This document shows positions 11,097 through 30,122 of a stretch of 64,000 nucleotides of DNA, one piece after another. The DNA lies in contig NEEC01000013.1 in NCBI GenBank assembly GCA_002189035.1, positions 3,100,001 through 3,164,000 of the forward strand. The letters run 5' to 3'. Position numbers and translations under genes: made by a program. The notes beneath the pieces are model-generated. The model saw only the letters and a program-made list of their open reading frames with translations. It ran no database searches and had not been told where the DNA came from. Each line of letters starts with the position of its first letter. Position 1 is the stretch's first letter. This stretch comes from Utricularia gibba (lineage: Eukaryota > Streptophyta > Magnoliopsida > Lamiales > Lentibulariaceae).

Positions 11097-12794
11097 TTAG
11101 TAGAAGAAACCGAACTGGGAGCTGGTTTTATCAGTCATTTCGGGACCATTTTGGTAGAACCCAGGCTGCTCGGGCTTATGTGTTGCCCTCAGCACCTGGC
11201 TGCTGCTTTCCTGATCCTGAGCCTCCTGGGTGGAATGTGCTGATGAGTGATGATGCCCTGAAAGCAAAAAATCCGGCAAAGCTTCTTCGGCTAGTCCCAG
11301 TCCGAGACCATACATGGCGGGCACCCGCGGCTCAGCTGCGGGAGGGAGCATGATTCCTTGGCAGTGAACTGGAGCGGGTAGTCCGCATGAACCCCAAGAA
11401 TTGCTGCTGTTGTTTGTTGACAGAAGAGAGAGAGCACGACCGTACTCTGTAGCTGCTTCCATATGGGGAGGAGGAGGAGAAGCGATGAATGATTCCTTGC
11501 AACCTAATAACCACCAACCCAGTTATGGTACTAGACTTGTAACCACAAACGTTCATCATTTTCTGGAGCATGAGCAAAGGGGTAATACTAAGACTGACCC
11601 GAGTCCAGAAAACCAGGTGTGGATATCTTGGATGAGAAAAGGCCGGCGCTGGTGGGGATATGCATCGCATGGTTGTTGGAGAGCTCGATTACTGGGGCAT
11701 GCATAGGATCAGTGATACCTTCATCTCCTTCACACCTGATAGAATGGTCTCCGCTCAGGGTAAACTTGGTGGTGCTGCAGTGTCTAGTGCTGATGTGTGA
11801 ACCATTGGTCAGGAAAAAACCCAGTTGTTCCCTTCCTCCTGCAATTCCAAAGGGATTAGATAGAATGCACCATTAGCCTTCAGGTCTTCTGTGACAGTGG
11901 ATGACGAAAATGCATTTAGAAGTAGTTTAGTGCCATTCCTGTCCTAGACAAGAATAAAAATTCCCCAACCACACCCAGGTGCAGTAACTCGATTCATAGT
12001 GCTAGACGTACCGTAGAAAGGTGACGAGGGGGCAGCAGAACTGAACAACATGCTTTCTTGCTGCGGCTTCCTACGACGAGCATTGTGATCAAAGAGCCTC
12101 CTCCTACAGCTGCGCTTCTTATCATCGAATTCCGACAGGTTATGGAACCTTCATCATACAGAATGAAGAGTGCTAACATCCATGAAAGAGAGTGACATGT
12201 GCGCGGTATGACATATTCTTACCTGCTGCACTGTTGGCAAAACCGGCGTTCAACACCGCCAACTATGACCTTGGAGCTTTTCGAATGATTGTCGCAAACT
12301 TTATGTTTCCGATGGTATTCCTTAGCAGTGGAGAGGTCGAGAGCACAGCCCTCAACAATGCAACGTGGGATGGGGCTACTCCTGTACGCTGATTTACTTC
12401 TGTTAGACGTACTCAGTTTTCCAGAGGAGGATGACGCCTTGTCATTTCCCACCGGACCGGCATTCTCAAAGTAGGTCCTCTTTCCCAGCTTCAGGCCGAT
12501 CAGGGGCTCCACCTCACCGAGTCCACATACCTCCGCTTCCTTCATCGAGTGTCTTGCAGAGTCTTTCGAAATCATGAGCTTGAAGGTCGGGTTCCGAGTC
12601 TCATCTCTTGTAGAAGATTCAGCAGAGGCATGGTGCCCGTCGGAGACGGACGAGAGATTGAAGGGCGAAGTGGTGTCAATTTCTCCATCCATCAGAAACA
12701 CGTCTCCCAACCCCAGCTTCCTTGGACCATATGTTGCTTTTGAACCAAAGGAAACAAGATTATCCCAATCCCATTTGCCATTCCAGTCCATCAC
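11097..12794 (-). CDS. SQUAMOSA promoter-binding-like (SPL) transcription factor
   Basis: SBP-box DNA-binding regulator of phase change and shoot or flower development. Four exons (12794-12223, 12148-12012, 11838-11599, 11503-11097) total 1,356 nt and encode 451 aa with every junction in frame. The N-terminus is [13 protein letters not shown], as in the SPL13/16 group. The SBP domain begins near [13 protein letters not shown] and has the expected zinc ligands: C, C and H in CIVEGC...[11 protein letters not shown], and CQQC. The split [19 protein letters not shown] crosses the usual SBP-box intron and carries the bipartite nuclear-localisation signal. The last exon holds a miR156 target site. 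The exact SPL number cannot be assigned safely. Confidence 0.95.
11418..11437 (-). promoter_or_regulatory. miR156/157 target site in SPL coding sequence
   Basis: Read on the minus strand this is GTGCTCTCTCTCTTCTGTCA, the canonical miR156-responsive element of plant SPL genes. In frame it encodes the conserved ALSLLS peptide of the last exon. It predicts post-transcriptional repression of this SPL gene by miR156 in juvenile tissue. Confidence 0.95.
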
Positions 12795-15144
12795 AACTCT
12801 GGTTGCTCCTCCTCGGGATCTCAGGGCTTCAGTATCCTGTCAGCAACAAACACCCATCCTGAACAAAGACCTTGTTCTGTTGTTGATCCACAGAATCAGC
12901 GAAAACAAAAAGAAATGACACACATGGCCGAAAGCAAACGCTATGAAACTGCAACCTATATTTCCAATCTGCAAGCGTTCAACCACGCCATCTCGAAGTA
13001 GCATTACCCTGTTTTCAGAAGCTGCATAAAACCAAAAGGCCATGAGAAGAAATCAGCCCCATCTCAAGAAAGCGTCACCAGATCAGGGAAGAGCCGTACT
13101 TGTCGTTTCAGCAAATGAAACTTTCGCTTCCCTACGCACCCCCTCTCATGCGTGGACCAGAGTGAAGAAATCTCCCACAATCTTCACCTATTTAATCACT
13201 TTACAGGGTACGATCAAAACTCTCCTTATCTTCTCTTTTTCCTTTTCTCCCTGTGAAAAAATGGGATTTCAGTACTACCCCACGCCGGAAAAGAGAAGTG
13301 CGGCCAAGCATGATTAGAGGCGCATAGAGACAAGCAAAAGATGTCCTTTATGTTCATGAATAATCTTAAAAGGAACCCGATACAAGATACTCCTCCTGCC
13401 TTCATTACCTTTCCAACATGACTTCACTGGCCCCCAAAAGCCAAAGCCAAAAAGGAAAATTACTACTTGGAAAAAAAAAAGAGAGAAAAGCATGACTTAG
13501 ATTCAGTGTATTGGGACCTGGTCAAAATCAAGGCTGGGTTGGACAGAACTGTGGGTTTAGACACCCTGCACTTCTTACAAGCCATACACAAAATCAACAG
13601 CAGTGTTCTTAAAAGCGGTGGCCATTGGTCGAAACCGCACCCACCGACAGTGTAGCTTGGCCACAGTCAAACCGACTCAACACTTGGTGAAGGCACCCAC
13701 GAATTAAAAAGCCGTTTGGAAGGGCAAAAATTGATCTTGGGTACACACACCTTTATCTCTTAAAGTGAGCAATAATATTTCGTTCGACAACATTTCCCTT
13801 GTTTCAGGCTGCCGGAGAACTTGGAAAAACAAAATGCACGTACTTTGATACAAACATAACATAGCAGTTCATTTATGAGAAGGCAACTGGAAAAAAAAAT
13901 GGTAAGAATCTGATGTACTGTACGGATAAAGGAGAATGAGTTCCCAATTGAATACCCACTGGGAAACAACAAAAAATTTCTCAACGCAACTCCCAAAGCT
14001 TGTTTTGTTTCTGCAAAAATAGAAATTACCACAAGGAAAACCATATGATTTTCACTTTCACCATCGTCATCGTCTTCCCATTTGAAAGCGTGTAATCATT
14101 TGAAGCGAAAGATAAGTTCGTTATCCTCTGAGAATCTATGTTTGGTTAAAGGGCGTAAAAAACCAAGGATGGGTGAAAAAAGAAACAAGTTACCTCGGTG
14201 AGTACAGAAGATAAGAGCAAGAAACGAGCTTGGATAACAGGGAGGGAAAAAAAACGAAAAATAAAAAGAGAAAGAGAAACGGGTAGCTGGGAATTGAAGA
14301 TAATGTCGAGAAAAGGCGAAGAAGGAATTGGAATTGGAGTTGGAGTTCCGATTACTGGACAAGAGAAAAGATGGAGGGAGCTGGCTGCGGAGCAGGCAGG
14401 GTATGGGCCTGCGTTAAGCTTTAATGGCGATTCGAGGTCGGAATAGGGTGCGGCCGAGTCCACAGAGGATCCACTAAACCAACGGCCCCGATTCGGCGAT
14501 GCCGAAAGGCGTGATCTGGTGGCGTCGGATCGGGTAGTCATTACTGATACCAGGATGGGGGTAACGAGACACTGAGGCCCACAACGGCCTCCACTGGCCC
14601 GCTTTATTAAATGATGTCTGGTTTATACAATATTCCACAATGACAAAAATGCACAGTCAATTTTCGTGCTTGAAAATTAATTTTATTGAAGCCAAGAATG
14701 GTGGGCTTGGGCCGCGGGAAGCACGTTACTTCTATTGGGCTTTGGGCCCACTAGGCCCATTCCACGATGATTTTGTCCAGGCAACTGCGCATTGTAATGA
14801 ACCTGGCCTTTGTCTCCTATTACACCAAAACAAAGGAAAAGGAAATAGAAAGACTGCTTTTACAAAATTTCTGGTGTAAAAACGTTTGCAGGTGCGGGGG
14901 AAGGATTTATATTTGCAGTCGGCTCCAGGTGACGTGTACGAATCTGAGTGGTTGAATGCCTCTCGCTCCCCTCCCCTTCCCTCCCCTCGGCTCTTGTTTT
15001 TATTTAACAAAATGCACACGCGCTTTCAATCGCGTGTCTGTGTGTTCATCCTTGTAGCTTAGCAACGACTGGGAAAAGTTTGGGCTGCACCTGGGAATAA
15101 GGGAGCAAGCATTGAGGAGGACTGCCTCGCAAATGGAGTGACTG
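12795..15144. other. Intergenic between divergent SPL and F-box genes
   Basis: No gene I can support. It holds the 5' regions of both divergent genes. An unrecognised low-complexity minus-strand ORF lies at 14146-14541 and a short plus-strand ORF at 14198-14446 overlaps it; neither resembles a family I know. A CT-rich tract near 14960-14998 precedes the F-box gene and looks like a plant leader or promoter Y-patch. Confidence 0.5.
15133..15141 (+). promoter_or_regulatory. Two-codon upstream ORF before the F-box start
   Basis: The sequence ATG GAG TGA ends three bases before the main ATG at 15145. If transcription starts upstream, ribosomes would meet this minimal uORF first. A regulatory effect is inference. 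Confidence 0.5.
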
Positions 15145-17181
15145 ATGGAGGAAGGGTTGCTCTTGAGGCAGCGTATGGGCGGATTGGAAGAGGGTTTGGA
15201 GGTTTATGGTTCTCCGGCTGCGCCATCTTTCGATTCTTTTAATGAGTTTCAAGCTCAAAGGCAGCTCGCATCTGGGAAACGGTCCGCCAGGTTTATACTT
15301 CGTTTCTTTGATTTCGATGCTGTTTTTTATTCCCGCCACGTTTAGTTTGACCTTTCGATGGGGTAAAAAATGCGATTCTTGTTCTTGTTTTGTGCTTTGA
15401 CCAGGACTCAACACAACTTTGCTTGGTTTTTCATTCTAGGGATTTTTTGTTGCTCGTTTCATCGGGTTACTGAGTTATTTGAGACTTGTTAAGATCGACT
15501 GTTTTCCTATTTGCAAAAAGTTCACTATTATGAATCGATTGTCGGAAAGCTGGGTTTTTTTTGCTCTTGTTTAACGACTTAATCGGCAGGGGCATGGTCT
15601 CTGTGAGCTTAATCAGCATGCCATTATTATTTTCTGTTTTCCCACTCCATATGTTTTTCTTGTCTTCTGAAAGTGATAGTTATCTTTGGATCATATTGTT
15701 TCTGTCTGGATTCATTCCACACATCTAGCCGCTTCTTCAGATCATGCATCCCTGGCTTGCAGCATTTGTGCTGGGAACTTTATGGAATCGATTCATCTGG
15801 TTTTGATTATTTCAATGAGCCTCTGTTTTTTTTTTTCCCACGACCCTGATTTTACAATGTGATTCCTCTTATGACATTTAGTTTCATTGTATGGTTTCCT
15901 GTTCATACCCGAACTCTTGGAATGTTAAGATTTTGACTATTTTGCAGGTGGGGAGTCTGCGATTCAGGAGCTAGCTCATTTAAATACGGCTGCCAAAATC
16001 CTTTAATGACAATAGGAAACTCTGAAAATATGAGAATTCTGGAACCCAGAAATCCTCCTAAGAAGGCTCGAAATGAGTGTAGCCCTGAAAACAAAATTGT
16101 GTCTGGAATCTCATCTGAAGTGATGGATGAGAATATCTGGAAGAAGTTTCCTGAAGACCTGTTTGAAGCCGTAATAGCAAGACTTCCTGTAGATGCATTT
16201 TTTCGGTTCCGATTAGTCTGCCGCAAATGGAACATGTTACTGAATTCTCCAAGTTTTTCCCAACAGTGTGCTCAAAAGAAGCAAGCTCAAACTTGGTTCT
16301 ACACTATGAGTCACACAAATAGAAGCATGGGGTCAATTTACGATCCTGCCTCGAAGAGGTGGTTCCATCCAACCCCACGGCTCCTTCCAAAAAAAAGAGT
16401 TCTGCCTGTGGCTTCAGAAGGCGGGCTTATCTGCTTCCTTGAAACCGGGGAGCGAAATCTCTACATTTGCAACCCTCTAACTCGGTCGTGCAAGCAGCTG
16501 TCTCCTATGTCTATTGGAGTCATGTCACGAGTGTCTGTTGGGATGACTCTTAACGGGCTCTCTACTCAGTCAGGTTACAAGATTGTACTGGTTTTTCATG
16601 GTGGGGAATATGGGATTTATGACTCCATCAGCAACTCTTGGATTCGCCCTGGAAACTTACCATCTGCTTGTCTTCCACTCACGCTCAACCGCAGGTCCCA
16701 TGCGGTTTGTATTGACAAAACTCTTTATTTTATGCGTCATAATCCTGATGGAATTTTGTCCTATGATGTGGAAAATGGGGTTTGGGAACAGCTTGCCATT
16801 CCTGCACCTCAACGTCTAAGTGATCAGATCCTTGCCGTGTGGGGCAGCAGGATCATGCTCGTAGGGTTGCTGACAAAAAATGCGGCTACCTGCATCTGCA
16901 TATGGGAGCTGCAGAAGATGACTTTGCTGTGGAAGGAGGTTGACAGAATGCCAAACTTATGGTGCTTGGATATTTACGGAAAGCACGTTAGAATGACTTG
17001 CCTTGGAAACAAAAGCTTGCTCTTGCTTTCCCTGCGATCACGGCAGATGAACTGGCTCATCATTTACGATGCAAGGACTCGTGAATGGGTCAAGGTCCCT
17101 AGCTTCGTCCGGCCGGAGGCTAAGAGGAGGCAACTCCTTTATGCCACTGGGTTTGAGCCTTGCTTGACTGCACTGCCTTGA
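15145..17181 (+). CDS. F-box protein (At5g15710/HWS-like), 2 exons
   Basis: Substrate-recognition subunit of an SCF ubiquitin ligase. Exon 1 (15145-15290) begins MEEGLLLRQRMGGLEE and splices in frame through a 657-base intron to exon 2 (15948-17181), giving 459 aa. The F-box spans about residues 105-150 (WKKFPEDLFEAVIARLPVDAFFRFRLVCRKWNMLL is the visible core, here split across the description). The remainder has kelch/beta-propeller-like repeats with motifs such as SEGGLICFLE, NRRSHAVCIDKTLYF and a terminal ATGFEPCLTALP, resembling the At5g15710 and HAWAIIAN SKIRT groups. An ATG at 16006 would give a shorter protein, but the upstream exon keeps an open frame with consensus splice sites and fits the family length. 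The target is unknown. Confidence 0.9.
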
Positions 17182-17615: not shown

Positions 17616-20600
17616 TCACAGCATCCAGCTTGCCATGTAGTTTGCGTTAACACTTGGACCGGCTCCTCCGGCAGCTGCAGCTGATAGGTGATCTGGCTGG
17701 TAGCTGAGCACGAGAAGAGTGAAACATCAGACAGAATAGGCTGAAGTCTGTGGAAGAACAAGGGAGATTGCATGTTGTGTTACCCGATTTGCAGTGTTGG
17801 CTCACAGTCGAGAGGATGAAAGAAAACATCTGGCTGGGTCTGGTGATGAGGTTGCCTTCCATAAGCAGCATCGGAAGCACTTGCATTCCACTGCAGGCTT
17901 ATCTGGCTTCCTTCCATCAACTGTAACAACACGGACAAACCTTCTTTCAAGCAATGATAGGAAAGTGTGGAGGATTCAAACAAACACCAAAGACAAATAT
18001 GATTACCCTCTGCTTCAAGTTCTTGTTAGCTTCATTGAGAGCGTGCTCCTGACCATGAAAACAACATAAAAGACCAGTGATACTTGGATTAAAGCAACTT
18101 ATTGATGTATTTTGAGAGCGCCAACATGAAACCATGGCGGATTTGGATACCTTTCTCTGAAGGTCTGTGAGCGTGTCTAGCATTGCTTGAGTCTGAATAA
18201 AAAAGTGTTGTCATGAAAAAGTTGAAGCATTGGAGTAACTCCGACCCATAACCACAGCAAAAATTCACATTCTCAGGAATGAAACAGGATACTAAGCTAC
18301 AAACCCGAGTTGATCGGATCAGCTTGAGTGACGAATCAAGTTGCCTCTCCAGCGATTCAAGTTCTTTGCTGTTCAAGGGGCCAAGATCCTCACCAAGAAG
18401 ATTCCTGGGCATAGAGTAAAAACACCAGCAGTAATCACTAGCGAATGCTTCCTGGTTACTTTAACAAGATGGCCCTCTGATCTATAAGTTCATGCTCTAA
18501 GTCGTGTAAAATATGCTACTTAACAACTGAACGCAGAAATTCTGCAGTGGAGAATTGCAACACTCAATGAAGCTCCAAACCTTTGGGTTCGCTGCAGAGC
18601 TTCATATCGTGCTTTAAGCTTCAAATACTCCTGCTGGCTACTCAGTTCCTGAATCAATATTTTCCGTTGAGAATTTGGTAGTCATGAAATCCACATAGAA
18701 TAAATCCGCATGTAATAATAAAACGAAGAGGAACAGAAGAAATCTCCTCCCAAAAATCCAGGAATTCTGCTACATAACAAGTAGGAAAGGTCTTATCTTT
18801 TGGAGGTTGACGAAATTTATTTGCAAAAGTTGCAACGACATTGCATTTCAGAAATATTCCCAAAATTCGGCGTAAAAGCAAATGGAAACAGCTGATAACA
18901 AAAAAAATGCAGCAAATTCTACTATCACAAGTTTCAATTCTAGACAACTAAAAATCATGAGTGTTAAATCTTGTACGACTCGGAGAATTTGGGCAGAAAA
19001 TTAAGCCCCAGAAAGAAAAAAGTGCTAAAATCTATAGTGAATAAGACAAGAACAGATTTAGGACAAAAGGTGAGATTTGAGAGAATCTTGTAAGAAAACG
19101 GCTGTAATATTGTTACCTTGTTTACATCTCTATACATATTCTATTTGTTCTTATTTAAGGCAAACTCAAGGTCTACGGTCTGAAGAATTACTGTCACCAC
19201 GAGTTTTTCTAACTAATTTTCCCTTCAAAGGAAGGATACCCCTTACACATGCAAGACCAATATCGCTGATTGACGTATTTGTCTCCAATAATCTCTCCTG
19301 ATTCATGAAAAATGTTCTATTTAGTACAACTGCAATTTTCTAACTTCACCTTTTAAGCAACGGCAAGTTATTTACCAGAGGTTTCTGATTTACCACTGTG
19401 TGACATTTGATGAAAACCCCACTCTACTAGTCTTTCCAGTCTTCATTACCCGGTAAGGCTCTTCTTCACATCTTTTTTTTTTTTATCACATAGTAGCTTG
19501 CAAGATCTGTAAGACTAGCCTTTCCAAAGGGTCTACCTTTCGTTTCTATTCAACACAAAAAATAAGTCTGACCATAAAAAATGCCAACTTTTCTAACAAA
19601 TGAACTGCGTGCTTCATTTTTCAGATTGCACTATTGGTAAAGGACGTCAAGCATGACTACCACAAAGAGCTCGAGGGTTGAAAGGTTTAAGGGAGTTGTC
19701 CCACAACAAAATGGACACTGGGGAGCGCAGATATACACGAACCATCAAAGAATATGGCTTGGTACATTTAAATCAGAGGTTGATGCAGCCATGGCTTATG
19801 ATAGTGCGGCCATCAAGCTAAGAAGTGAAGATTCGCAAAGGAACTTCCCTTGGACGAGTATAACTGCCCAAGAACCTAGTTTTCAGAGTCTTTTAACCAA
19901 AGATGCAGTTCTGAACATGATCAAAGATGGTTCATTCTCGTCCAGGTTCGCTGATTTCCTGAGGAGTCGACAAGGTGGAGCAATTGATGAAGGCTCGAAA
20001 GGCTTATCCCTCCATAGAAATGATGATTTCTTGTGCACTTTGCTCTTCCAGAAGGAGTTAACACCAAGTGACGTTGGGAAGCTTAATAGACTAGTGATCC
20101 CTAAGAGATATGCTATCAAACATTTCCCGAATGTTCCCGAATCTAGTGAAGCTATCAATACAGACTCGGAAGTAGGCAATGGAGTACAGCTTGAGTTTTT
20201 TGATAGCCAGATGAATTTATGGAAATTCCGGTATTCATACTGGAAGAGCAGTCAAAGTTTCGTCTTCACAAGAGGCTGGAGCCAGTTTGTGAAGGAGAAG
20301 AGATTGCGACAACAAGACATCATTGCTTTCTACTTGTATGAAAGCAGAAATGGAGGTTGTTGGAGACAGCCATTTTTTATGATTGATGTTGCCAGGAAAA
20401 ATGATTCAGAAAACAACGAAACAAAGAGGGAAAAGGACGTTTCACTGGAGCATCCAAGTACCGGTGAGGAGGAGAAAGGTTTCCGGCTTTTTGGTGTTCA
20501 GATTAACTGACCTGAGCTTGCTCCAGCTTCACTGTGAATCCTACTTTCTATTGCCTTCATCCATAATTTGGTAATTCTTAATTTATTATCTCAAAGTTGA

Positions 20601-22425
20601 TCATTGTAAGTATTCCTTTTGCATTTCCAATGCAAGAGGTAGGAAACTACTTGACTTCCCTTTCGTTCCTTTTAAGTGATAAGCAAGTGTTTTGATAATT
20701 TGACTAAACCCAAATTTCACACCTTGCACTTAGTAAATTTTAAGCATGAACCACATAAAGACACTTCATCAGGACCTTATGGTTATTCACTTATTGTTAG
20801 ACAATAAAACATCAACAACCTGAAACAAAATATAGCAATAACAGGATACGTAGTAGTTACCAGTGCCTCCCGGGTAGAAACATTTGTCTCTGGTGCTCCA
20901 TAGTTGGATTTCTGGTATCTCTCCAGTGTCTTGAGCATGCTGCTAAATACCCAGGAAAAAGCAATAAAACAAAAGTTATATTTCAAAAACATTCATTAGG
21001 ATCTTTTCTGAAGCAGAAAGCAACTGTCCAATCACCCGTTTGGACAGAAAAAAAAAACTGCCTGAACAGATAACATGTGTGTAAAGGAGAGAACTTTCTC
21101 AATTTCCGTGAGATAAATCGAGGAATCTTCTTACAGTTCATGCATTCGCACATGAAATCAAGTTCCTGAACGTAGCCCAACGGTAAGTTGCAGATTGTCA
21201 GGATTACATAAATAATTGTTTGCAGCTTTTAAAGATCTTTGAGATGAGGCTAATCTGAAGACCCCGTGATTAAAAAAATATTTTTTAAAACAAGGAATCG
21301 CACAGTTCACGGGATTCTATTGAGAAGAGAAGTAAATTTCCCAAACCAAACCCTAGGGCAAAATTCCCAAATCCGGCTTCCTCCTCACAAAGTTTTAGTT
21401 AGGAGTATCCCAGGAACCCATGAAAAAAAGTTTTAATAAGTGAAACTTTGTGCAGTAATTAAAGACATGCGAGAGTGCGGGACAGATTCATATCTTTGAA
21501 CTTTCAACACCAAGCCCTAATTGCAAAGGCAAAATTCCCAAATCCAATGCAATACAACAAAATGAAAGGAAGAAAAGCTCAGAGAGAGGGGACCGGCGGG
21601 ATAAGCTAAAACTGAGGGTTTGAAGAAAAATTCTCGGGAAAAGAAAAGCTTTAAAGAAGGGGCATCTCCATTGACCCTGGGGGTTCTGCCATGAAGGGAA
21701 GATCATGGGAAAAACCCTAGTAACCGCGTTTTGTCCAAAGAAAAAAAAAAAAAACCATGTATATGTATACGTATCTATCGCACTGTGAGATCTTTCTGGA
21801 GCCTAAGAAAAGGTTGAATGAAGCTTTCTGGGCTTGTGCTCTCTCTCCACTGAACCAGAGACAAGCAAAGGATCAACGGAGAAGAGTTAGGTATTTGCTC
21901 GGAAGACATGGATCTTGTATCTTCAAAAACATAGATCACCATTGAAGAGACAAAGGAAAGAAAAAAGAGAGGTAACGTTGAAGGTAGAAGAAGTAAGTGA
22001 TGGTTTTTGGAGTTGCAGATCTAGGCAAACCCACAAGCGCAGAGCCCCATAACAATCACAGAAACGGCAAAAAGAGAGAAAAATGCTTTTCTCTTTTTCC
22101 ATCAAGATTGAATTTTGGGACCAAACAAAGCCACAAATCTATGAAAACCAGAATCTTTCGGACTAAAAATTGGAGAGTAGAGAAAGAAAAGGAAAAGAGC
22201 CGTGGTTGCGGCTGGTTGATGTCTGGGGTGGTTTTGATACCTAGAGCTACTGCAGAACTCGTACAGCTTTCCCCTATTGGAGAAGATAATGAGTGCAACC
22301 TCGGCGTCGCAAAGAACGGAAAGCTCGTAAGCTTTCTTCAAAAGCCCATTCCTCCGTTTGGCAAAAGTCACCTGCCTGTTGATCTTGTTCTCTATTCTCT
22401 TGAGCTCAACCCTCCCTCTCCCCAT
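17616..22425 (-). CDS. SEPALLATA-like MIKC MADS-box transcription factor, 8 exons
   Basis: Floral E-class homeotic regulator that forms tetramers with other MADS proteins to specify floral organs. Exons 22425-22241, 20939-20861, 18648-18581, 18404-18305, 18192-18151, 18048-18007, 17920-17784 and 17703-17616 total 741 nt and encode 246 aa, all in frame. Exon sizes (185, 79, 68, 100, 42, 42) are the classic MIKC pattern. The MADS domain (1-60) starts [18 protein letters not shown] and ends near [12 protein letters not shown]. The K domain holds [20 protein letters not shown]. The C-terminus has the SEP motifs, [13 protein letters not shown] and a final [10 protein letters not shown]. An in-frame open stretch continues upstream of the ATG but is probably untranslated leader. 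Intron 2 (20860-18649) contains a separate gene on the other strand. Whether it belongs to the AGL2 (SEP1/2/4) or SEP3 clade is unresolved; the tail favours AGL2. Confidence 0.97.
19653..20510 (+). CDS. AP2/B3 (RAV-like) repressor nested in SEP intron 2
   Basis: Transcription factor with two DNA-binding domains, encoded by one intronless frame of 285 aa. The AP2 domain spans about residues 10-65 ([18 protein letters not shown], then [18 protein letters not shown]). The B3 domain starts near residue 128 ([20 protein letters not shown]) and runs through [20 protein letters not shown] to about residue 245. The C-terminus carries RLFGV, the RAV-type repression motif. The sequence resembles At1g51120/At1g50680 more than RAV1 or TEM1, and has only about nine residues before AP2. 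It lies wholly inside the 2.2-kb second intron of the SEPALLATA-like gene, on the opposite strand. The reading frame is undamaged, so it is probably functional. Confidence 0.95.
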   Translation: MTTTKSSRVERFKGVVPQQNGHWGAQIYTNHQRIWLGTFKSEVDAAMAYDSAAIKLRSEDSQRNFPWTSITAQEPSFQSLLTKDAVLNMIKDGSFSSRFADFLRSRQGGAIDEGSKGLSLHRNDDFLCTLLFQKELTPSDVGKLNRLVIPKRYAIKHFPNVPESSEAINTDSEVGNGVQLEFFDSQMNLWKFRYSYWKSSQSFVFTRGWSQFVKEKRLRQQDIIAFYLYESRNGGCWRQPFFMIDVARKNDSENNETKREKDVSLEHPSTGEEEKGFRLFGVQIN

Positions 22426-23699
22426 CTCTCTCTTTCTCTCAACAGAGACAACAACGGCGAGTTGCTTCTCTTTCTTTCTTGTACAGCCATCCTTCTTTAT
22501 ACACTGTCTTTTCGTACGTGTAGGTGCGTGGGCGCGCGTGTGTGCGTGTATACATACATACATACATATGCGCACAAGCATCACCATTCTCACGTATGCG
22601 TACTACGTCTCTGAAGGCCAGGGTGGCACACCCACACATTCTCAAAGCTTCATCATCCCCGGGCGGTGAGTGATGGCCCATCGGAAATTAATTTGTGTGG
22701 TTCCGCAAAACACTCCACTCGGCTCGGCTCCGGGTGTACGTAGCAGTAGTATCGTAGAGAGGGAAATGAATGAAGGGTGTTGTTACGTGTTACCATCATC
22801 ATCATCCGGCCCTCCTGGTCCCCAAGGAGATGAGGATGCGTGACCTGACCTTGCTCATTTTCTTGATGCCAAGCAATCCATTACCGCCCGCCCTAACCCC
22901 GCAACTTCTTTTCATTTGATTCACGGGCATGGGCATCCCGCATCCATCTAGAAATGGTCTCTGTTCTTAACCCGGGAGGGGGAGGGGGAGGGGGGCAAAA
23001 GCGTCAGAATGATGAGGCGCGCGCAGGTCGCGTCAGACTTGTTAGCCTGAAACGAGGAAACACCCTCTCCTTCGCCTCCCCATAATTCAAAGCCCACTCC
23101 CTTTTGGGAAACTCCTCTTTAAACTAACTTGTTACGTCCATCTGGGGCCCACCCCCCTCCCATCCACCTCTCTGGTTTGGGCCCGGGTGCGATGCAGCAA
23201 CATTTTCATTTGTTGCGGATGGATGGATGGATGGCCCGCCCAGCAGGCATTGGGCTGGAAGGTCTCGTGTGAAGAGCAGCCAGCCTCCCTCCCCTGTCTC
23301 ACTACCACTATTTATTTTAACTGTTGTCATCAAAAAATGGAGCCGCCATTGTCCCAACAGACCTCAGAAGCTGGGGATTCAGGCCTTGGAGTAAGTTGTC
23401 AGACGTAGGCAGATTGGCTCCTTGTGGGCCTGGAGACCATGGGTACAGAAGTGCTCCAGTTACCACGTACACAATGGGGGCTGGCAGCGGCTATTAAGAG
23501 AACTAATCTAGGCCTATCACCACAATAAAAGACAACCAGTCCTTTTACATGATTGGTCGGTCGTGTACATTGTTATATAAGCAACTTTTTAGCGCACGAA
23601 TTTGGGAGGGTGAAAAAATGCTTACAGCAAGCAACCTTTTGACCTCATATGCCAGTCGTCAAGTTCCCTTGGAACTAGTCTGCAGTAAAATGTAAATCA
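22426..23699. other. Intergenic upstream of the SEP gene
   Basis: This is the presumed promoter and leader of the SEP-like gene on the minus strand, plus the 3' end of the primase gene. It includes a (CATA)n/TACA microsatellite near 22548-22567, a CT-rich stretch next to the SEP start (22405-22445), an ATC repeat near 22794-22807, a G-rich tract at 22974-22996 and an ATGG repeat near 23218-23233. No additional coding gene recognised. Confidence 0.5.
22974..22996 (+). repeat. G-quadruplex-type tract upstream of SEP
   Basis: Four or more runs of at least three G separated by single A bases form a textbook intramolecular G-quadruplex motif on the plus strand. It lies about 550 bases upstream of the SEP start codon. 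Folding in vivo is not shown. Confidence 0.7.
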
Positions 23700-26600
23700 C
23701 TAATATTCAAGCCACATATCACCAGTAACAGATAATGCACATGCGACAGCAACTGATATGATTACCCGTGATTCCAGTATCTTTTTGCTCTCGCTGTAAT
23801 ACTGATTTGGATGATTAATTCCCTCATCACAGGATGCACCATGAAGAGCTTCAAATGTCAGCGTGCAAGCCAACTGCAAAAAAAAAAAAAAAGAAGAATT
23901 GAACTTAGACTTTTAGTCCATACAATAATAATTCTAAAAAGGCATAACCTGATAGTGTCGATTCCGAGCTTTTCCCAGAATGTCCTCAGATGCACGGTTG
24001 CCAACTCCCACATTGCTTAGGGCAGCTCTCAAATTCTCTTCACTGCACATGCGACGCCGAAAAGCATCATCAATACGGCATACATGCCCAAAAAACGCCA
24101 AAAAAGTGCACCATGCTTAACAAATACATTTTAGATAGATATAATCAGCCCCTTCATAAAAACCAAGGCCAAAGAAAATGGTATCTAGTGATAGGCGACT
24201 ACACGAAATCTGAAAATATTTCAATTGTAAGATGATGCATAGCATAGAAATGACCTGAATTGACGAAATGGGCAGCCATGATGTTCTCCCACGCCTGGAG
24301 TCGAAGATATGACCTTATGGCATGAATAAGGGAGTAATCCTGCATTGTTAATGAATTTAATCAGCTCAAGTGCTGAAGACGCCATCGACGTTGCCTCTGA
24401 AACCCAAAAATGGGGCCGCACTGAGAAGTATCTTTTTGAATATTACAGACTTAGCAAGGAATCCTGAAAACCCAAACACGAGGAAAAATGGTGAACATGG
24501 GAAAAGTACATTACCGCCCTTTTCCCTTCTTTCCCATACGAGTGCCGTATGCTGTAAGCATATTCCTTGTCAAACCTTTCAGCAGAAACCTACGCAGTAC
24601 ACGTATGCTTTTACTGAGGATACACATTTCCAAAAGCAAAAATTAAGACAAAGATAATTGCGCTTTTCAGTTCCCTCTCAGATTATGTCCAAAATAACTA
24701 TGCGTGATTAAAACCGTACAAAGCAGGATGAGATGATTCATCATACACGATAAATGTATTCTTTCTGTGGCGTTATTCATGTTTCATTAAATTGGATACC
24801 AGAACGTATCATCACCTTCCTGGTGAATTCTGATTTCCAGAAAGCAAGAGCATCATCCAGTTTGAGTCCAATTCCCTAAGAATGAAGTGGAAAGAAAATC
24901 AGCCTTTTGAAAAGGAATGAAGCATCTTCAAATTTCAACTTTTACTACATAAACCAGTGCATAAAGGAACAATAGAAACAAAATCTAAGCTTCAGAAAGG
25001 AGATATCGCTTCAAAATCACTACAACTGGCCTTCGGCATGGAAGTATGTGCACCTTAAAAAAGAGTCCTAGTTGCATACGGCCTCCATACTTCAAGTGAT
25101 GATCATCTCTAAGCTGCACGAATAATTACAAAAGAATAAGTGATTGCGCTTGGCAGAAAAAACCACTGGACTGGAAAGTAATAACAGACTTGATACCTTA
25201 TAAAATAAGTGGCGCATACATAGAGGGAATGAGCTTTTAGCAACTCGATCAATATCCGTCAGTGATAACTCCACAAACTCTTTAGGCTAAAGTGGCATTC
25301 GTGGATTAACATACGTTTCGAGGAACTGAAATAGCAAGGACGGATATAAACTTCCTCACGAACCTGGCTATAGTCAGGACCTAAGTAGCTTGTGGGCAGG
25401 GCTTCAATGATCTGCGCAATGCAAACAGTTAGATTTTTCTTGACATAAATGGGCATAAAACGCACAACTTTTTCTGATGCATACAGGCGTCAGCCGGTCT
25501 TTCTCTTGCTCTTTGATCATAGATGTCCATTTTCTAAAAAATAATGACTTTCCATTAGTTACATAATGCTAAACAGAAAAATAAGTCTTTTTGACTAATA
25601 AACCTCTAATGTGAATGAATATAAAATAAAAGAGTCAAAACGTGATAAGGTCATTAGAATCCTTTTTCTAAAAACAAATGGATGACCAGTACATAACGGA
25701 AACGTTTCATACCGGTTAGTAAGTACTAGGGCTTTTGAGAGATGGCTCCGGTATTGTGTCATCAGGAGGTGAACCACCTGCAGAAGGCCAGGACTCAACA
25801 ATGATATGGTGGAGTTTATCTTACACATACATCTTTTATGGCCAAAGTAAATAACCTGATTCATTGCAACATATGCATAACCCTTGTGAATGAACACCTT
25901 GCGATCTCCGACTAGATTAGGAACTTCTTCAAATGGCACCTTTATTAAACATTGTATCAACAGTTGTACGAAACTAGTGAAAAGACCAGTAAATCTAAAA
26001 TGTTTGCAATTCATTTAACAGGGTTACTCCGACTGGCAAAGAGAAAGTTAGAATGAACAGGAAGGTTACCTTGTAGAACATTGAGTCAGCTGTGAGGGTT
26101 CAGAGAAGAAAAAAACACAAATCAACAACCACAGAATCCTTCCGTCTCAACCAATGCAAATTTGTCAGGAAAATGTAGTACATACCACTGGATAAAGATT
26201 GGCCTACAGAACGAACCACCTGATTCAGTTTGTCCTTGACAGCCTGAAACAAGAAGACTCGTTGTCATTCCATTTAGTATAACCGTATGAAGGAATGTCC
26301 AATAAAATGCAGTACAAAGGCTTTGCTGTTTCATGCAATGACGCCTCTTAAAGGCAGGATGAAAGAATTCCTGACCTCGTATTCTGAAGAGCTAACAGCT
26401 TTATACGGAAGGTCAAACTCCCCCAATAATGCTCTCTAACAAGAAGCCGAATGAGCAAGATTAGCCATCAATACAGCCCCACAAGCACTGCAGTAGTAGA
26501 ACAGCTTTTTAAGTTTGATCGGTGCGTACCTGCGCCTCGGGGGTTTCTAGCAGAAAACGATACTGGAACAAAGCAGTCTCCATGGAAAGAAACCTCCTCC

Positions 26601-27236
26601 GTAATTCCTCCCTATATTGACATAAAGTTCACACAAACACACGTGAGCTTGAGCGCGGAGTTTCATTTTACAAAGTGCTAGTGGACCAACAAGGAAAGAA
26701 AATGAAGAAGAAACTCACTCTCTGCAGAAGACAAGCCGCAAAACAAAATGAGAAATGATATCCTTGTTGACAGCATGAGCCTCATCTGGATGACTCATGT
26801 TTTCCTTCCATAATTTTTTTACCTACATCACGGACACTCAGATGAAAACATGAAGGAACGCAATAAAAGCATCCAACAGCTAAATCATTATCCCTTAGAA
26901 TCAGATATGGCAGTACCGTACCAAATCTTCCATCTCACTGGGTTTCTTTCCACGAGAAAGTGCATCTGAAATCCCTTTGTGAACTGCCAATTGAATAAAT
27001 GTTAGTGGAATGCTAATTGAAGTTCTGAATTCCTGTTTCCTATAATGTTTGCACGGGGCAGGGCGCCCCACTTTTCGGGAAGTCAGAAAATAACCTCGAA
27101 GGCGATGAACAGCATACAGCTCGAAGTCTTCCAACCGAACCTCGAGTTCCGGAGCCTCCCGGTACAAGGGAAATGTCGAAACGACACCGTCTGCGGAGGA
27201 GAGCGATGATCTCCGCCGGGGCCCAACAATTTCCAT
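23700..27236 (-). CDS. DNA primase large subunit (PRIM2), many exons, one frameshift
   Basis: Regulatory iron-sulfur subunit of the DNA polymerase alpha-primase complex, which makes RNA primers for nuclear DNA replication. The start at 27236 gives MEIVGPRRRSSLSSADG followed by LEVRLEDFELYAVHRLR, then KGISDALSRGKKPSEMEDL in exon 2. About 15 further exons follow in order, including LTDIDRVAKSSFPLCMRHLF, HHLKYGGRMQLGLFFK, DALAFWKSEFTRK, ERFDKEYAYSIRHSYGKEGK, VISSTPGVGEHHGCPF, LACTLTFEALHG and INHPNQYYSESKKIL. The Fe-S cluster cysteines are all recognisable: PLCMR, PYSCHK, HGCPF and LACTL. At the start of the PYSC exon (near 24330-24343 in plus coordinates) the frame is one base short relative to the preceding exon. 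The 3' end is uncertain; reading on from ESR gives a stop at 23700. An in-frame ATG at 27365 would add 43 residues but is less likely. Confidence 0.88.
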
Positions 27237-27657
27237 GAGCAAATCCAAAGGCCAATAAAAAACTACCGGAGGAGCCAAACAAAAGGTACAACGGCGAACA
27301 GTAGGAGGGAATACTGAAGACGATCTGAAAGTGCGCGGGAAAGTAACCGTTCGCGCCGCTTCCACGGAGCAGGGCCGAACTGAAATCGAAATAGCCCATT
27401 TAAATGCAACAGAGCCAACCCTTGCTAAAATGGGCCAGAGGGCATGGCCTAGAGCCCATGGACGTGATTATGAAACCCACTTTTAAGCGTTGCTGTTCAG
27501 ATTTACTTTCAAACGGTATCAACTGAAATTAAAAACCAAAAACGGGGAGACTCCAGTTTCTAACCTGCTTTAACGAGGACGACTCTAAGGAAACTGATCG
27601 ACGTCCGTCTCCTCTACCTCCGAAATCATAGCAACGCAAGTGGGGGAAACTAAAACT
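27237..27657. other. Spacer between DUF1664 and primase genes
   Basis: Both flanking genes run on the minus strand with only about 420 bases between stop and start codons. This interval must hold the 3' end of one and the promoter of the other. No other gene seen. Confidence 0.5.
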
Positions 27658-30122
27658 CTACAATTCGGGGAATAAGAATAGCGGCTGCCCCTTCCCCCTC
27701 GCAAAAATATTGCTCTGCAAATACGAATCTTTGTCTGTTTGTAAAATGCCACGTAACGCCGACCATAAACCCCAGGAGTTTCTGCCCAACACTGCTGGAG
27801 CAGCTTGGTCGGGCGACTCGGTGAGGGGTGGACGTTGCTCGTCGCTCTCTGTAGCTTCATATATTCCTGCGAGCCCCTATAAAATCACACCTCAGGGATG
27901 CAACTCGAGCAGAGATGAATGATACTGGGAGGTACTTACTACCTTCAAGCCCCATCCAAGGGCGGCACTCTGGCTCTTTTGACGTCCATTCGCATGACCT
28001 GGGGATGGTGGCTCCACTGATGGGCTAGCGGGCAAAAATAGAGCCTGCAAAGTGGAAAGCGCAACCGCAGTCTTTAATAGCTTGATCCCTCAATTCACAG
28101 AGGGTGTGTATCTATGGACATACCCTTAGAGGAGTTGCTTCTGAACATTCAATGGCCGACATGGAAGTGATTGAGCTAGTACCCTACAAGATCCATTCTC
28201 AGAATTATATCAAGCATGACAACGGCGACATAAAATCAAATGAATATTATCCTTGCCCTTGCCTCAATCTGCACGGTGCTTCGATCACTTTTAATATTCC
28301 TTGCAATAGAAACCAAATTCTTCAATCCATCAAGCGTCTCATCCTGCACAAATTACACGATGCAAGAGGCTATAAATGCTAGAAACCAACACCGGTCACC
28401 ATCTAAGAGTCTAGGAACCTGTAATGCAGCTGCTGAAGTGATACCTGCTGATCCTCTATGCTGCTAATTGTAGTATTCTGCAGCAAAAAAGGCGCGGTAT
28501 CACGGACCACAGTTCTGTAAAACCCATCTAGGAAAGTAGATTCATGGAAAGAACATCATTCACCAGAGATTGAACTTTTTTGTGAATAAACTGCACATCT
28601 GCCCCAATTTGGTTTAGATCAACACGAAGAAGAGGAACCTGCAGAGATTCAATGAGCGACGGTCTCAGTGAAAAACACGCACCCAAACTCTAAAAATCAG
28701 CAAGGATGCCTCACATCTTCTTTAATGGAAGAAGTATTCGCCAAACATTCATCAACTTTGGAATTGACTGTATTAATTCTTGCAGACAAATTCTTCCTTG
28801 TAGCCTAGAAAAGCATAACAAAAAAATGAAAAATTATTAGTCAACACCTTTTTCCTTTATATCAAATAAAATGAGTTTCATGCATGCCCCATAAGAAGTA
28901 TACGGCTTACATTGCCTAATCACACAAAGTGAAAAAAAAAAAAAAAAACTAAAGAAATATCATTCACATTTGGAAAAGAAAACTTGCCGCAACCGAGGAA
29001 TAAACAGTTTCAAGCTGCTTAGCAACAGAAGCGCATGCATCATTTAATCCACCCCTCGTTGCGAGCATCATGTCCGGTATTTTAATACCCTAGTTGCAGA
29101 TACTGCTAAGCGTATGACCCTTGAAAATTTATGTAGCTAATGAAGAAAAAAGCCAATTACCTTCCACCAAATGTAGCCAGATCCAACAACTACTACAAGA
29201 ACTACAAGACCAAGCTTACGAGAACCTAATTAACATACGGCAGGTCAACAAGAGCTCTGCTCTAAGATCACACAATCAACATACACATGCAAATTAAAGG
29301 AATAAAAACCAAGGCCCAGAACCACAAAAAAAAAGCAGATACTTGAAGAGTCGAGGAGAAACATATGGATTACACCTTCAGAGCACTAGCACTAAAGATG
29401 CTATGTGCCCAACAGTGAATGAACAAATAATGTGTAAGCGGTTTGTAATTTTCTCAAACGATAAATTAGGGCATATCAGAACTTGGCAGAAACCTGATCG
29501 ATTTTCCGTGACAATGGTTAAGCATCCGCTTGAGGATGCAAGGATTTGCAGCTCCCTTCGCAAGCTATTAATCTGCAGAAATGTAATATTCAACTAAATT
29601 CAGCCAGTTGAGTTGAATAGTAAATGCCATTGCTACAACATGCAATATTACAAGCCACGCGTGCTGTTTGCTGATCAGGAAAAATCAAAGGGAACCCACA
29701 AGAGAACCAACAGCAACCTGTTGCATCAAAACTTCATTCTTGGGATTTGAACCCGAAAAGGACGAATCATCTCGCCCAAGTGGATTTAAGACAGTCTGCT
29801 TGTAGAAAGACACGTCATAAGTAATTTGTTAAGCTGAAAAATTGTTAGACATCTCGAGATGACGCCATGGAGAACCACCCCTACTGAAAACTTATAAAAC
29901 TACCTTAATCGCACCAGAAAGAATATCAGCTAACCGCCCTTCTTTAGCAAGAACTGTCCCCAGATAGCCTACGAATGTTTTTATGATTATCACAACATTG
30001 GGGACGAGAAACGCCGGCACGAGAACCATAGTGCCCAAAAACTTTATTAAATACCCCGATCAAATGATAGAGCACTAACCGGCACCGAGGAGGAACGTAA
30101 ACTTGGCGAGAGGAAGCGCCAT
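27658..30122 (-). CDS. DUF1664 membrane/coiled-coil protein
   Basis: Plant-specific DUF1664 family, related to Arabidopsis At1g04960/At1g27000; the molecular function is unknown. Exon 1 (30122-30080) encodes MALPLAKFTFLLGA and joins GYLGTVLAKEGRLADILSG, the conserved opening. Later exons give EVLMQQ|INSLRRELQILASS, a hydrophobic helix KLGLVVLVVVVGSGYIWWK (about 29215-29165) followed by GIKIPDMMLATRGGLNDAC, and a helical coiled-coil region RKNLSARINTVNSKVDECL. The final exon ends at 27658. One intron (28987-28805) has a GC donor, GTTGCG|GCAAGT; no GT donor keeps the conserved SSVAATRKN frame. Middle exons between about 28770 and 28060 were not placed precisely. Neighbouring genes give no hint of its job. 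Confidence 0.87.

Follow-up and report, generated by a model that had tools for sequence, protein, structure and literature searches.

The nested gene pair

The second intron of a SEPALLATA-like (SEP) MADS-box gene of Utricularia gibba contains a complete, intronless gene for an AP2/B3 transcription factor of the RAV type, encoded on the opposite strand. The pair lies in a 64,000-nucleotide stretch of contig NEEC01000013.1 (positions 3,100,001 to 3,164,000; hereafter the window), in which coordinates are counted from the first base (Table 1). This arrangement had been proposed in a sequence-only reading of the window, which described a 285-aa AP2/B3 gene antisense within a 2.2-kb intron, with all eight host exons and the whole nested frame intact, and each of these points held when reexamined. 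The intron measures 2,212 nt, the host exons splice into a single frame of 246 aa, and the nested frame stays open for 285 codons before its stop. The entire nested coding sequence falls within one host intron and both frames are intact; the two genes thus form a real nested pair.

The host is read on the minus strand from 22425 to 17616, with GT...AG boundaries at all seven introns, and its product possesses the Pfam SRF-TF (MADS) and K-box domains, both above their cut-offs. Its top-scoring relative among the matches listed shows 89% identity at 100% coverage, and because the named matches are mostly called AGL9 homolog, MADS4 or SEP3, the host is here called SEP3-type. This designation, which follows the names of the best matches, replaces an earlier guess that the gene was SEP1-like. 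The MADS and K domains, the eight exons and the SEP3-like protein all agree with a SEP3/AGL9-type gene.

The nested protein shows the succession of an AP2 and then a B3 domain that marks a RAV factor. Its B3 domain scores above the Pfam cut-off, and residues 9-103 and 130-227 match the solved TEM1 structures 7et4 (E 4e-19) and 7et6 (E 3e-30), respectively; weighing against the assignment, the AP2 domain falls below its own Pfam cut-off (28.2 vs 33.3 bits). The C-terminal RLFGV motif claimed for the protein is indeed present, in the sequence RLFGVQIN, and conforms at the sequence level to the R/KLFGV motif; LFGV occurs in 102 of the 120 relatives listed and RLFGV in 71. The named relatives are mostly annotated as AP2/ERF and B3 factors, and the top-scoring one listed, from Genlisea aurea, is 67% identical over 100% of the query (those named next are also from the Lamiales); the nested frame is therefore not a product of chance. 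The best matches carry the names At1g51120-like or At1g50680-like, and the group assignment is made by these names. In PMC4836749 both At1g51120 and At1g50680 are placed in RAV group B, and a repression role is given to the RLFGV-type motif. From its AP2 domain, B3 domain and RLFGV motif, the nested protein would be expected to bind DNA and act as a repressor of the ordinary kind.

Table 1. Features of the SEP3 locus and its nested gene (window coordinates)
Feature	Position	Strand	Basis
Host SEP3/AGL9-type MADS-box gene	17616..22425	-	splice sites, open frame, Pfam, relatives
SEP3 exon 1	22425-22241	-	spliced frame
SEP3 exon 2	20939-20861	-	spliced frame
SEP3 exon 3	18648-18581	-	spliced frame
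SEP3 exon 4	18404-18305	-	spliced frame
SEP3 exon 5	18192-18151	-	spliced frame
SEP3 exon 6	18048-18007	-	spliced frame
SEP3 exon 7	17920-17784	-	spliced frame
SEP3 exon 8	17703-17616	-	spliced frame
SEP3 intron 2, 2,212 nt, host of the nested gene	18649..20860	-	exon ends
Exon-2-side intron sequence common to C412 SEP3	20735..20860	-	intron alignment
Exon-3-side intron sequence common to C412 SEP3, in pieces	18649..18904	-	intron alignment
Nested intronless AP2/B3 gene, RAV type, At1g51120/At1g50680-like, 285 aa	19653..20510	+	open frame, domains, relatives
Likely promoter and leader of nested gene	18905..19652	+	position only
Leader (5') and codons 1-8 of RAV; collinear probable relic at C412:79400-79502	19575..19676	+	alignment
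Likely 3' region of nested gene	20511..20734	+	role inferred
Last coding exon of 'F-box only protein 6'-like gene, convergent with SEP3 and anchoring the conserved block	15937..17181	+	

Duplicated blocks and the age of the nesting

The assembly searched (100,091,633 bases in 516 contigs) was found to contain four blocks that join a SEP3 gene to an F-box gene, on contigs C375 (the window), C412, C2 and C451. In the window, the SEP3 and F-box stop codons are ~0.4 kb apart, and the matches of the F-box gene have replaced an earlier guess of an At5g15710-like gene with the name given in Table 1. Synonymous divergence (Ks) between C375 and C412 is 0.386 for the F-box gene and 0.435 for SEP3, and that between C2 and C451 is 0.441 and 0.431, respectively; the two pairs of blocks differ from each other by about 1.0-1.3. 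The younger value (~0.4) is read as the last genome doubling. U. gibba is described as having a genome of about 100 Mb with two recent genome doublings (PMC8333044) and at least three doublings in its history (PMC10663240).

Intron 2 of SEP3 varies widely among the four blocks, from 2,212 nt in the window to 594 nt in C412, 375 nt in C2 and about 125 nt in C451. The C412 intron is without a RAV gene, and C412 is collinear with the window to either side of the RAV position. This bare intron was first read as a sign of recent insertion into C375 only, a reading that was dropped after a probable relic of the RAV gene was found within it. The relic is a segment of 103 bp that aligns to window positions 19575-19676, in the collinear place and on the same strand, with a score of 55 and identity at 71 of 108 columns. 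The best control scores were 51 for 1000 dinucleotide shuffles, 42 for 180 genomic windows and 40 for 52 other stretches of the window.

Further indications come from the reading frame of the relic. On the RAV strand it reads MISATKSCR, and the closest copy of the nested gene in the same genome, an intact gene at C414:512328-513164 that is 71% identical, reads MVSFPKRSR at the same register. Counted from the aligned Met to the AP2 domain, the nested gene is a codon shorter than the C414 copy, and codons 5-8 of the nested gene encode KSSR; the scrap in C412 has K..R in frame, with the codon count of C414. Just at this place, KRSR occurs in 9 of the 28 relatives shown (all Lamiales where named) and KRxR in others, the place being variable across the 115 relatives scored. 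KSSR thus resembles the KRSR of relatives, and the start codons are therefore probably RAV's own; the codons of the scrap would likewise belong to RAV rather than having been donated by the intron. Moreover, the best ungapped match of the C414 start on the RAV strand of the C412 intron falls exactly at the position of the relic. Given this collinear relic, the nesting is probably older than the C375/C412 duplication (Ks about 0.4), with the RAV gene subsequently lost from C412.

Several observations weigh against so early a date. The relic is short and stands out only when taken whole, across the ATG; taken separately, its parts were matched as well by 16 (RAV upstream), 100 (coding) and 38 (downstream) of 200 shuffles. 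The comparison of the C414 start with the relic is also weak (19 of 31 bases), and 10 of 2000 shuffled sequences and 16 of 756 windows did as well. It is conceivable, then, that RAV was inserted after the C375/C412 duplication and that the C412 scrap is plain intron of the kind that supplied the leader and first codons, as the end of the alignment right after codon 8, the lack of any other RAV coding match in the C412 intron and the weakness of the scrap against the C414 start alone would all suggest. Nonetheless, the likeness of KSSR to the relatives' KRSR, which implies that these codons probably arrived with RAV, and the shared frame and codon count of the scrap argue the other way, and a late insertion is considered unlikely. 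No RAV trace was seen in the C2 and C451 SEP3 introns, where a relic would hardly be recognizable at such a distance.

Origin of the nested gene

RAV-family genes had been characterized, in the reading made from the sequence alone, as ordinarily independent loci, and this statement needs a rider. Among the 25 species found in both of two 120-row match lists, seven (Andrographis, Ilex, Tetracentron, Stephania, Telopea, Actinidia eriantha and Cinchona) have RAV and F-box rows, the latter being the neighbor of SEP3, on a same-sized contig. This count was made by hand and is based on equal contig sizes and locus numbers, not on maps. The locus numbers of the two genes differ by 17 in Tetracentron and by 14 in Stephania, and in Andrographis the SEP3, F-box and RAV rows all fall on a contig of 5,011,175 bases. 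Against an ancient association stand the other 18 species, which lack this co-location, as well as Cinchona itself, whose locus numbers are more than 1000 apart.

A second line of evidence is offered by the gene beside RAV at C414 (510790-511173), which has no Pfam match and appears hydrophobic by eye. Copies of it occupy the interval from SEP3 to the F-box gene in two blocks, at C2:4746842 and C451:670245, and a further one is found at C3:4486388. From the co-location in 7 of 25 species and these copies in the C2 and C451 blocks, it follows that RAV is probably an old chromosomal neighbor of the SEP3/F-box block. The co-location likewise makes a short-range move of RAV into the intron likely, and, if its C414 neighbor is used to orient it, RAV would already have been antisense to SEP3 beforehand, just as it is now.

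Taken together, these observations make it quite probable that the window holds a true nested pair with the following history. A RAV gene resembling At1g51120/At1g50680, long a neighbor of SEP3 and the F-box gene, would have entered intron 2 in one lineage of SEP3, in antisense orientation, at a time preceding the last doubling; thereafter, the window copy would have retained both genes, and the C412 copy would have retained SEP3 and lost RAV save for the scrap at its start.

Entry may have been by DNA copying or by retroposition: neither RAV frame, nested or C414, has introns, and the two have diverged too far for these routes to be told apart. A transposon origin was also considered and rejected, as the ends are without convincing terminal repeats or a target duplication (the short repeats listed are chance-like) and the flanks have no other genome match; in particular, 18880-19660 gave no further match elsewhere in the same genome. 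C414 was likewise rejected as a second nested pair, with no MADS box listed in its vicinity (C414:512 kb) and no SEP3 exon detected by tblastn of C414:504-523 kb. An SPL gene beside RAV at C414 was considered as a sign of a block shared with the window, where there is also an SPL gene, and was not used, the similarity being just 53-64% in two short stretches. In addition, C414:508-511 kb is duplicated at C3:4.453-4.487 Mb (a zinc-finger gene 92% and a neighboring gene 64% identical), and no RAV match is listed in C3:4.45-4.49 Mb.

Maintenance of both genes

The host protein deviates at only 1 of 135 columns that are each at least 97% conserved in the 120 relatives listed, compared with 14 for C412, 8 for C2 and 5 for C451. 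In exons 3-8, which SEP3 transcription would reach after passing the nested gene, Ka/Ks is 0.11 against C412, 0.064 against C2 and 0.031 against C451. On these measures, therefore, the host SEP3 is not undergoing erosion. The C412 SEP3 (C412:77759-80715) also has an intact frame, and 8 of its 14 deviations lie in the MADS domain, making it a candidate for altered DNA binding.

The nested protein and its C414 counterpart retain 95 and 97, respectively, of 98 columns that are each at least 95% conserved in the 120 listed relatives. Between the two copies Ka is 0.186, and synonymous sites are saturated (pS 0.77). In a neutral simulation of 5000 runs, with substitutions only and no insertions or deletions, the frame stayed open in 2.2% of runs at 0.10 changes per site, in 0.4% at 0.15 and in 0.2% at 0.19, this last distance being half of the younger Ks by our own choice. 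The simple reading is that the nested gene is under selection. In a tree built from the two U. gibba copies and 44 of the 120 relatives listed (46 rows in all), the nested and C414 copies group with Genlisea (98/96). The next match in the genome after C414 is 43% identical, covers part of the protein and contains a stop.

Selection would be a mistaken reading if the nested gene were silent or decaying, open by luck and covered by the C414 copy. That second copy is intact, the nested branch of the tree is longer than that of C414 (0.61 vs 0.42), and the RAV gene of C412 was lost; all three speak for decay and hence against the reading preferred here. Set against them are the intact frame, the conserved columns kept, the retention of the RLFGV end and the small share of neutral frames that survived in the substitution-only simulation, and a silent copy accordingly seems quite unlikely.

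Expression and possible interaction of the two genes

RAV would presumably have a promoter of its own, lying between SEP3 exon 3 and the RAV ATG, and its transcript would end ahead of SEP3 exon 2 (20861 on), near an AATAAA at 20803. The SEP3 pre-mRNA would in turn be spliced across the whole RAV gene. The mature mRNAs would then have no overlap, and any interaction would occur during transcription or through the intron. Transcriptional interference between RAV and SEP3 is possible. Among nested genes, PMC8467205 reports such interference in Drosophila and no divergence of expression in mammals. The public RNA data used in PMC10663240 cover bladder, leaf, stem, rhizoid, shoot, trap and pooled vegetative tissue.

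It is conceivable that the pair has been kept as a regulatory unit, in which antisense RAV transcription or local binding of the RAV protein would repress, or tune, SEP3 in cis. After the doubling, the copy without RAV would then have drifted to an altered MADS domain, and the other would have kept the canonical SEP3 role. Such a scheme draws on the repression of flowering by the RAV-family genes TEM1 and TEM2 (PMC3892441) and on the fact that the copy keeping RAV kept a canonical SEP3 protein and the copy losing RAV diverged. However, a single duplicate pair cannot show cause, and C412 lost RAV but not SEP3; the proposal is held to be as improbable as that of a silent copy. Finally, an assembly join, with RAV and SEP3 not contiguous in the plant, had been named in the sequence-only reading as a finding that would overturn it, and is scarcely credible: nothing was found in its favor, the intron sequence flanking RAV matches the C412 intron to the left and to the right, and that intron also carries the probable RAV relic at the same place.

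Comparison with known systems

Nested genes as such are already known, and what is new here is the history of the nesting, as preserved by the relic in a duplicate. As in the nested intronic genes described in PMC3488318 and PMC8467205, a separate intronless gene resides in a host intron with no exon overlap predicted and no convincing terminal repeats at its ends. Unlike those animal examples, the present case is from a plant, both partners are developmental transcription factors, and a datable scrap marks where, following a genome doubling, one copy probably lost its nested member. In animals, rates of nested gene gain exceed those of loss (cited in PMC3488318). The nested gene shares with RAV group B (At1g51120 and At1g50680; PMC4836749) the order of AP2 and then B3, an intronless frame and an LFGV-type motif, and differs in being nested within another gene.

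For the host, likeness to SEP3/AGL9 genes and the SEP3-FLC tandem (PMC9656651) extends to the MIKC exon pattern, the SEP3-type protein and, in C2 and C451, a second MADS box after SEP3, which is presumed to be FLC-like. By comparison, the window has the close SEP3-F-box stop spacing and RAV in intron 2. No report of a gene nested in a SEP intron was found in the titles and abstract starts of the top-ranked, mostly non-subscription literature.

One nested copy, one probable loss and two short-intron copies in which no nested gene was found provide a natural comparison within one small genome. This comparison bears on the effect of a nested antisense gene on the splicing, expression and evolution of its floral homeotic host. 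Moreover, it suggests a route by which extreme genome compaction could place neighbors inside each other with neither being harmed.

Other features of the window and its duplicates

The blocks also differ around the SEP3 genes. Upstream of SEP3, the window has ~5.3 kb (22430-27700) between conserved stretches that are separated by ~0.75 kb in C412. In two blocks the interval from SEP3 to the F-box gene contains a tRNA-Ser gene (C2:4747950-4748032 and C451:671313-671397), 82 bp of which are identical in the two copies.

No RNA family reached its gathering score in the 15-28 kb portion of the window. CArG boxes comprise one degenerate match in intron 2 (19150) and one strict match at 24404, and were not used as evidence. 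The F-box gene contains, at 16935-16954 (+), a site one mismatch away from what we take to be the miR394 target of LCR-type F-box genes. Across the F-box gene from SEP3 lies the window's SPL gene (11097-12839), an SBP-box gene with a site at 11418-11437 (-) that perfectly matches the presumed miR156 target.

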